Assembly (NCBI RefSeq): GCF_029626225.1 | Contig: NZ_JARUBP010000001.1 | Location: 7,130,001-7,194,000, forward strand | Origin: Asanoa sp. WMMD1127 | GTDB taxonomy: Bacteria > Actinomycetota > Actinomycetes > Mycobacteriales > Micromonosporaceae | Reading direction: 5' to 3' | Length of the DNA stretch: 64,000 nucleotides | Shown here: in pieces, positions 43,917 through 45,497 of the stretch | Numbering within the stretch: the first letter of the stretch is position 1 | Layout: every line of letters begins with the position of its first letter | The notes under the pieces: generated by a model | The model's database searches: none | What the model was told of the DNA's origin: nothing | What the model saw: the letters and a program-made list of their open reading frames with translations, nothing else | Translations under genes and position numbers: made by a program

Positions 43917-44921
43917 GTGACGACGAATCTTTTCGTAGCCTGGCGAGCAGGGGTGGGGACCCCGTCGGCGGTGCGGACGGGGGGCGGGCGAGTGCGAACG
44001 GACAGGCAGCGAGCGGTGCGGGCAGGCAGCGACGCGATGGTGCGAGTGGCCGTCGCGACACTGTGGTCCACACCGGACGCGGTCCGACCGATTGACAGCC
44101 GCGCGCTCGGGCGCACCGCCGACATCCCATCCTGGGTGGCGTCGATGTCCGCCGAGCAGCAGGTCGGCGACGGGGTGCTGAGCCAGTTGCTGCTGGGTGA
44201 GCGGGTACGCGTCGACGAGGTGCGCCCCGACGGCTGGGTCCGGGTGGTCGCCCTGCAGCAGCCGGGGGTGCGCGACGAACGCGGCTACCCCGGATGGATC
44301 TCCGCGGACCAGCTCGGGCCCGCTCCCGCTGACGTCGACGACACCACCCTTGTCGTCGACGCGACCGCCACCGACCTGCGGGCGGCGCCCCGCGGGCCGG
44401 TGCTGCTGGCCAACGTCATGCTCGGCACCCGCCTGACGGCGGCGGGCGGGCCGGTCGACGATTTCCTGCCGGTACGGGTCGGCGACGAGCGGCTGTGGGT
44501 GGCCGCCGCCGACGTGGTCCACGCCGGCGGCGAGGGCGGCCGACCGACCGCGGCGCTCGACGTGGCGTCCCGGCTGCGGGGTGTCCCTTATGTCTGGGGT
44601 GGGCTCTCCGCGTACGGAATCGACTGCTCGGGACTCGTGCACCTGTCGTGGCGCCGCTTCGGGGTGACCCTCCCCCGCGACGCGGCCGACCAGGCGGCGG
44701 CGACCCGCTCGGTGCCGCTGGGCTCGGAACAGCCCGGCGATCTCTATTTCTTCGCCCGGCCGGGCCGGCGCATCCACCACGTCGGCATGGTCACCGGCGG
44801 CACCGGTGGCGGGCCGCGGCGGATGTTGCACGCCTGCTACACGCAGCGGCGGGTGGTGGAGGAGCCGCTGTCGTCGGCGCGGGAGGACACGTTGATCGCG
44901 GCGCACCGGGTGGTCGACTGA
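43917..44921 (+). CDS. NlpC/P60-family peptidase with SH3-like N-terminal domains
   Basis: 334 residues from GTG 43917; ATG 44037 (MVRVAVATLWSTPDAVRPID) may be the true start, giving 294, because homologs begin around there and the first 40 residues look non-coding. Two SH3-like segments (about 41-200) precede the NlpC/P60 domain. The Cys-His-His catalytic set is Cys237 (IDCSGLVH), His288 (HHVGMV) and His305 (MLHACY). It resembles gamma-D-Glu-diamino-acid endopeptidases of the YkfC kind, which cleave murein peptides, agreeing with the dipeptide epimerase upstream. No signal peptide is evident, so intracellular recycling is likely. Confidence 0.88.
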   Translation: MTTNLFVAWRAGVGTPSAVRTGGGRVRTDRQRAVRAGSDAMVRVAVATLWSTPDAVRPIDSRALGRTADIPSWVASMSAEQQVGDGVLSQLLLGERVRVDEVRPDGWVRVVALQQPGVRDERGYPGWISADQLGPAPADVDDTTLVVDATATDLRAAPRGPVLLANVMLGTRLTAAGGPVDDFLPVRVGDERLWVAAADVVHAGGEGGRPTAALDVASRLRGVPYVWGGLSAYGIDCSGLVHLSWRRFGVTLPRDAADQAAATRSVPLGSEQPGDLYFFARPGRRIHHVGMVTGGTGGGPRRMLHACYTQRRVVEEPLSSAREDTLIAAHRVVD

Positions 44922-44935
44922 AGTTCGTGGCCGGC

Positions 44936-45097
44936 CGGGGAATGGTCGCGGTGGGTCGGTGGTTGAGGTGAGTGTCGGTGTGTTCAGTGTCCCCGGGCCT
45001 CACCTAAATTGCCTTCGCGGAATACCGTCCGGCTGGAGCCGCGTCGCGCCACTCGCCGAGAGGCGACCTGCACACCGACACCGAAGCGCCGCCCCGG
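44936..45097 (+). repeat. 199-bp tandem repeat, copy 1
   Basis: The unit recurs exactly 199 bp downstream. From 44985 to 45097 the two copies are identical over 113 bases. From 44936 to 44984 they differ at a few positions. It starts 15 bp after the NlpC/P60 stop. Confidence 0.95.
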
Positions 45098-45126
45098 GCT
45101 TTCCGTCCGGGAGCGGCGTTTTCTTT
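45017..45126 (+). ncRNA. candidate small RNA, copy 1
   Basis: A TAAATT box (45005-45010) could be a -10. About 110 bases later comes an intrinsic terminator with a T-run. Between them TCGCC-GAGA-GGCGA is a perfect stem capped by a GNRA tetraloop. No convincing protein is encoded: the open frame across it is the same in both copies but has no homology signal. The -35 is not clear. The RNA ends are estimates. Confidence 0.45.
45087..45126 (+). terminator. intrinsic terminator, repeat copy 1
   Basis: CGCCGC (45087-45092) pairs with GCGGCG (45113-45118), with an inner CCGG/CCGG pairing. TTTTCTTT (45119-45126) follows. This is the clearest rho-independent terminator in the window. Confidence 0.8.
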
Positions 45127-45134
45127 GTGCCGAC

Positions 45135-45296
45135 CCGGGAATGGTCGCGGCGGGTCCGTGGTTGAGATGACTGTCGGTGTGTCCAGTGTCCCCGGGCCTC
45201 ACCTAAATTGCCTTCGCGGAATACCGTCCGGCTGGAGCCGCGTCGCGCCACTCGCCGAGAGGCGACCTGCACACCGACACCGAAGCGCCGCCCCGG
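45135..45296 (+). repeat. 199-bp tandem repeat, copy 2
   Basis: Second copy of 44936-45097. The 113-base identical core lies at 45184-45296. Confidence 0.95.
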
Positions 45297-45322
45297 CCAA
45301 CGCCGAGGGCGGCGTTCTCGTT
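45216..45322 (+). ncRNA. candidate small RNA, copy 2
   Basis: Same layout as copy 1: TAAATT at 45204-45209, GNRA-capped stem, then a hairpin and T-rich tail. The sequence beyond the identical core differs, but it again pairs with the conserved 5' arm. Confidence 0.45.
45286..45322 (+). terminator. intrinsic terminator, repeat copy 2
   Basis: CGCCGCCC (45286-45293) pairs perfectly with GGGCGGCG (45307-45314), followed by TTCTCGTT. The 3' arm and loop differ from copy 1, yet a stem is kept. Confidence 0.65.
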
Positions 45323-45463
45323 GACCCCACCTAAGGGCCACCTAGCCTGACGCCGGTCTGGCCGGCGTCGCCGGCCTCGCGGTGAAACTCCCCTCCGCGG
45401 CGCTGCCGGCCGGGCGGTGAGACGCGGTCCTCGGGCCCGGCCGAGCGCGGACCCGGAATGCGC

Positions 45464-45497
45464 CGCAGGCCGACCCGGTGTGCCGGGTCGGCCTGCG
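45464..45497. terminator. long hairpin 3' of terC
   Basis: GCAGGCCGACCCGG and CCGGGTCGGCCTGC flank a TGTG loop, and one more C-G pair closes the base, giving a 15-bp perfect stem. It lies 15 bp beyond the terC stop. There is no U-run; a processing or termination role is likely. Confidence 0.65.

Follow-up and report, generated by a model that had tools for sequence, protein, structure and literature searches.

The window, by which we mean the whole stretch of 64,000 nucleotides (64 kb) that was analyzed, carries two direct copies of a repeat at 44930-45097 and 45129-45296, between an NlpC/P60 gene and terC. The copies are 96% identical over 168 nt and are spaced 199 bp start to start; 170 of 196 aligned positions agree, and the longest identical run, 113, lies at 44985-45097. 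A DNA search of the same genome found no copy beyond these two. The initial annotation of this DNA had noticed the 199-bp unit with its identical 113-base core and had read it as a pair of tandem small-RNA genes, a proposal now borne out by class-wide homologues, a common fold and a promoter string belonging to each copy. The repeat represents one small-RNA gene present twice in tandem. It is not a product of chance, since the predicted transcripts fold far more stably than their shuffles (copy 1 from 44971: -78.9 kcal/mol, z -4.34; copy 2 from 45170: -75.7 kcal/mol, z -3.77) and DNA matches occur in 30 of 61 genomes. Folds begun at the end of TAAATT, which is found in both copies (45005-45010 and 45204-45209), are weaker (z -2.31 and -1.88).

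The RNA probably starts about 35 nt before TAAATT, near 44971, and would be about 155 nt long including its terminator. The predicted transcripts, on the plus strand like all parts of the two copies, extend over 44971-45125, with the start placed by promoter and outer stem and the end by the terminator, and over 45170-45324, where both ends are predicted likewise. A transcript of about 110 nt had been expected earlier; the prediction is longer because the outer stem extends the RNA by about 35 nt at its 5' end. Each copy contains a GNRA-capped stem, CGCC-GAGA-GGCG, at 45054-45065 and 199 nt further on, and ends in a terminator hairpin placed by folding (45083-45122 and 45281-45320). The 5' arms of the terminators are common to both copies and the 3' arms differ, and both still fold into strong hairpins, just as first described. 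The T-run is clear behind copy 1 (TTTTCTTT) and weaker behind copy 2 (TTCTCGTT). Folding was applied to the terminators of the two window copies; elsewhere they were judged by eye, and some short forms of the RNA show none. Between copy 2 and terC, a perfect inverted repeat whose 15-bp arms enclose a 4-nt loop (45464-45497) is perhaps a terminator as well.

Fold and distribution of the homologues

The DNA search gave matches in 30 of 61 genomes, the window's own included, and in 26 of 54 genera. For the first alignment, 30 of 40 listed places were used, namely the two window copies and one place per further genome; the weakest genome match (genome G045, locus L032, 27 nt) would not align and was left out. 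Models were then made of a long form (R1) and of a short form (R2); for R2, the 7 rows with stems of approximately equal length were taken out of an initial alignment of 15 short rows. Of the 394 genomes of the class, which represent 138 genera, R1 has matches in 95 (45 genera) and R2 in 237 (80 genera), with E-values that are rough for both models. The Micromonosporaceae, in which homologues were at first to be sought, are thus only part of the range. In draws from the phylum, R1 matched in 10 of 296 genomes and R2 in 10 of 149, and all twenty rows came from the window's own genome, family, order or class. Genomes have one to four matches, mostly one or two. Among the matches listed, the exact pattern occurs in Streptomyces, Micromonospora, Actinoplanes, Nonomuraea, Actinomadura, Saccharothrix and Dactylosporangium. 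Several genomes of a genus recognized as Streptomyces, among other things by its Scr RNA families, have the short form together with long forms (G077, G097 and G115). Tandem or close copies recur at L079, L084, L095, L114 and L288, so that local duplication has probably happened repeatedly.

The homologues have one common predicted fold, consisting of a closing stem P1, a 2-bp stem P1b, an unpaired strand, a variable arm and a GNRA hairpin, P4. In the alignment, conservation begins well before TAAATT, where TGTCGGTGTG forms the 5' partner of CACACCGACA, which immediately precedes the terminator; in copy 1 the strands of P1 are at 44972-44982 and 45071-45081, each placed by covariation, and in alignment A5 11 of 11 P1 pairs have changed on both sides. 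The 5' strand of P1b (GU, 44989-44990) pairs with AC at 45066-45067, and the stem P1b directly abuts P4 (45054-45065). Between P1b and P2 the strand CCCCGGGCCUCA is almost invariant among the aligned homologues and unpaired in the model; it is CCCCGGGCCTCA at 44991-45002 in copy 1 and lies at 45190-45201 in copy 2. Alignment and covariation place the P2/P3 arm, the variable peripheral part, at 45011-45049. The structured body of copy 2 (45171-45281) scores 133.3 bits with R1, copy 2 being among the sequences from which R1 was built.

Covariation in the homologues, proposed as a check by the initial annotation, agrees with this fold and with the suggestion that structure rather than sequence is kept. 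In A2, a plain MAFFT alignment of 29 distinct rows, 12 of 27 pairs show changes on both sides, with 38 two-sided cells against 9.7 after shuffling; 95% of cells pair, falling to 23-46% once partners are slid. In A5 (107 distinct rows), 21 of 27 pairs are two-sided, with 340 two-sided cells against 75, and the 48 distinct short-form rows give 149 against 39; A5 and A8 were fitted to the models, which favors structure, and their rows are related to each other. With the partners slid out of register, pairing in A2, A5 and the short-form alignment drops from 95-98% to below 50%. Both pairs of P1b are formed in the 48 distinct short-form rows wherever both letters are present, and their types vary (GC 27 and AU 18 for one; AU 19, CG 13, GC 12 and UA 2 for the other). 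The P1b columns of A5 (109 rows) are mostly G-C (102) and U-A (93), with another standard pair in 2 and 9 rows and unpaired or gapped positions in 5 and 7. Of the 109 A5 rows, 99 have GAGA, GCGA or GTGA as the P4 loop, as do 56 of 56 in A8; the other ten A5 loops are GCGTA (5), GAGGA (3), CTGGA (1) and one that is truncated.

In distant copies the P2 arm is reduced to a short hairpin, and the core is the same in short and long forms. In several lineages the P2/P3 arm also bears an additional hairpin, constant in position but not in length (L028, L031, L112 and L246). A small hairpin predicted by RNAalifold (AG-GUC/GGC-CU) was dropped in favor of P1b, which still pairs in distant forms. The outermost U-A pair of P4 in R1 was likewise rejected; it is not formed in 41 of 107 rows, and P1b accounts better for the constant A.

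Promoter and sigma factor

Promoters were counted in 166 distinct copies with at least 94 nt of upstream sequence, drawn from 239 rows of A3, A5 and A8, the rows left out being repeats or rows without upstream sequence. A stretch of 62 nt was searched, ending 6 nt inside the RNA. The string GGAAY-N17..19-GTT stands at the promoter position in 124 of the 166 copies, 115 of them with N18, as compared to a mean of 0.26 and a maximum of 2 in shuffled controls; copies from related species are not independent in these counts. Farther upstream, the string was found in 0 of 166. Long forms carry it in 91 of 116 cases, all 91 with N18, and short forms (body of at most 90 nt) in 33 of 50; these 50 include L261, a long form cut by a contig end. 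It is missing in 42 of the 166 distinct copies. By eye, some short forms look rather like TANNNT promoters.

GGAAY-N18-GTT occurs exactly twice in the whole 64-kb window, once per copy, as GGAAT-N18-GTT at 44939-44964 and 45138-45163. TAAATT, originally offered as a box of each gene, does stand in both copies; as a -10 box it was discarded, being situated inside the predicted transcript and varying among homologues, and the conserved string is the ECF-type one upstream. Both window copies fit the SigR promoter consensus, given as GGAAT-N18-19-GTT (PMC9205884). Elsewhere in the same genome, the only one of 42 SigH_actino matches over the cut-off is preceded by GGAAT-N18-GTT ending 250 nt before the profile match, and the only one of 26 TRX_reduct matches over the cut-off by GGAAT-N19-GTT ending 56 nt before it. 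The predicted sigR and trxB of this genome thus carry the SigR-type promoter string too. SigE of S. coelicolor is reported to have GGAAC-like -35 boxes as well, with 18-bp spacers in 59 of 100 sites, and the string therefore does not fix the sigma factor. Control of the small RNA by SigR is likely from these matches.

Of the 116 long forms, 16 carry a CRP-like site, GTGA-N6-TCAC, in their upstream sequence, against an expectation of 0.1; the 50 short forms have none, and none was seen upstream of the window copies. In the Micromonosporaceae and Streptomyces, a CRP-family palindrome or a near form of it was observed upstream of the -35 element at L008, L010, L021, L057, L058 and L061. An IdeR/iron box at CCTCACCTAA, a half site found by eye, was considered and dropped.

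Neighboring genes and proposed mode of action

Neighboring genes were called by a simple script rather than a gene finder. Among 40 copies (39 long and the short L111), the commonest neighbor family is common to 5. The NlpC/P60 and TerC neighbors of the window RNA are found with 2 of the 40 copies, which both belong to the window's own genus, and the proposed link to a wall-hydrolase gene is not supported. Among 37 short-form copies the commonest neighbor occurs in 14, and in 14 of 14 it is the 3' end of this gene that faces the RNA (nine upstream on the same strand and five downstream on the other); the one member tested, that of L299 (1623-2216), had no Pfam match. Six Streptomyces loci, including L308, L309 and L311, have the short form flanked by genes for a UvrD/HelD-type helicase and a malic enzyme, as identified by Pfam in one pair. 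At L313 (1501-1990), in a genome of family f8 that is probably mycobacterial, the RNA follows a WhiB-family gene at a distance of 38 nt. By computation, each copy is a free-standing gene that is independent of its neighbors. Its own promoter and terminator, together with the lack of a conserved neighbor or reading frame, are features of trans-encoded sRNAs.

It is hypothesized that the repeat encodes a SigR-type stress sRNA of approximately 155 nt that acts in trans by pairing of its C-rich strand with mRNAs, a reading to which we assign a probability of about 0.42. A SigR-type ECF sigma factor, responding to thiol or oxidative stress, would start transcription of each copy, probably with a contribution from a CRP-family activator upstream in some lineages, and the intrinsic terminator would stop it. 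The fold, with P1, P1b abutting P4 and the variable P2 arm, would hold out the near-invariant C-rich strand. Under stress the RNA would accumulate, and our guess is that the strand would then pair with G-rich sequence at the translation starts of a group of mRNAs, thereby lowering their translation. We slightly favor this antisense reading because pairing through a C-rich strand is the commoner mode of sRNA action. The exact complement of the strand, TGAGGCCCGGGG, occurs in the window's own genome only at the two copies themselves; a reversed control string gave 0, so that this count, restricted to the exact 12-mer, says little.

The RNA might instead be a ribonucleoprotein scaffold that under stress binds, sequesters or escorts a protein, as 6S and Ms1 do with RNA polymerase, with the CCCCGGGCCUCA junction and the P1b/P4 stack as putative binding site. 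We regard this as a possible if tentative explanation, and it follows close on the antisense reading because the junction and the GNRA loop are kept more evenly across the class than a seed needs. The nearly invariant 12-nt junction strand would be as suitable for binding a protein or ligand as for serving as a seed, and the low number of matches per genome and a core that stays the same while the P2 arm varies in length are also in keeping with a scaffold. Against it, the Rfam scans of the window and 30 loci gave no match pointing to a protein partner, and we know of no protein partner of the RNA. An extended version of this idea, which we consider doubtful, would make the RNA an undescribed, class-wide RNA arm of the thiol-stress response in the Actinomycetia: a ribonucleoprotein RNA of a breadth comparable to Ms1, with a junction that binds a protein belonging to the stress or transcription machinery; in filamentous lineages, duplication would have given rise to longer paralogues under CRP and SigR control.

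A compact fold with a conserved junction followed by a terminator hairpin would also be expected of a cis-acting, riboswitch-like leader whose terminator controls the next gene, and in five Streptomyces loci (L096, L097, L098, L100 and L104) the RNA does precede a codirectional gene. The genes downstream differ, however, and are often on the other strand; with neighbors so varied, on either side and either strand, a cis role for one gene is unlikely, and we hold the leader to be improbable. That the repeat is nothing more than a functionless gene end or terminator duplicated locally, as its tandem position behind the NlpC/P60 gene might suggest, is refuted for the family by the class-wide homologues, the covariation and the conserved promoter string, although one of the two local copies is possibly redundant. 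A short conserved peptide is very improbable, in agreement with the view that no protein reading is convincing, as open frames through both copies are expected at the local G+C content, while lengths in A5 (junction 15-20 nt, arm 8-68 nt) change in steps that are not multiples of three and changes follow the base pairs.

Many antibiotic producers are Actinobacteria, and no general small RNA of the SigR/SigH response was found in the literature searched. Through an RNA so widespread, with so conserved a fold and such a promoter, that response would gain a post-transcriptional branch, one that is directly testable in laboratory Streptomyces, and the family would be one that Rfam 15 scans do not recognize.

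Comparison with known RNAs

Scanning the window with Rfam 15 (4227 families) gave 0 matches at the gathering cut-off, and at E up to 10 the interval 44900-45400 gave only two far sub-threshold matches (E 6.9 and 7.9). At E up to 1, nothing was found on the RNA body in 10 homologous loci, with an F6 match (E 0.85) lying just behind the RNA of L046; in 20 further loci the body was without a match except at L308, where a sub-threshold Thr_leader match (E 0.17) lies over the RNA. The L311 Streptomyces interval, scanned at E up to 10, gave nothing on the RNA body. The initial impression of an RNA family that was not recognized agrees with the scans of the window and these 30 loci. Near one short-form copy, the Rfam family Ms_IGR-5 sRNA is found on the other strand (L276, 1844-2034).

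From the gene names, the helicase/malic-enzyme interval of the Streptomyces short form is presumably SCO2951/SCO2952. The number of the published RNA scr2952 points to this interval, and the two may be the same transcript, as compared by interval rather than by sequence. In S. coelicolor, scr2952 is named as conserved and as part of Rfam (PMC8388888), yet the scans of the L308, L309 and L311 intervals gave no such match. New scr names carry the right-hand gene number (PMC3765725), and the older name may follow another rule. RF02828, RF02829 and RF02826 were considered as entries for scr2952 and are Scr3920, Scr4115 and Scr6925. The name scr2952 may cover the short form.

A text search of the literature with the core sequence returned no paper, with supplementary tables outside its scope. 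Published lists include Streptomyces sRNAs that are conserved, have C-rich loops and lie at other genes (PMC3765725), nine conserved intergenic regions of S. clavuligerus that show a promoter, a terminator and an RNAz signal and are not annotated in Rfam (PMC11678152) and about 50 predicted RNAs of mycobacteria (PMC3388012). Single transcripts of the family have probably been listed before. As a class-wide RNA, the family with its fold and promoter appears to be undescribed within the literature searched, supplementary tables being outside it.

6C RNA is likewise actinobacterial and has a C-rich stretch, and is described as two stem-loops, each typically with six C (PMC4046766). The window RNA does not have two stem-loops with six C in each loop; its C-rich stretch is in the junction and it has no Rfam match, and the initial judgment that it is not 6C RNA stands. 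6S-like RNAs such as Ms1 have a long closing stem, which the window RNA shares along with a wide actinobacterial spread; the window RNA is shorter than Ms1, its fold is without a large central bubble, and its two copies, scanned at E up to 10, matched none of the Ms1/6S-like families of Rfam. For Ms1/6S-like RNA, this spread is documented in PMC9130861. The promoter string GGAAT-N18-GTT of the window copies is shared with the SigR/SigH regulon. The well-known members of that regulon are protein genes. In Corynebacterium, 44 start sites of sRNA candidates are reported with SigH promoters (PMC4046766).
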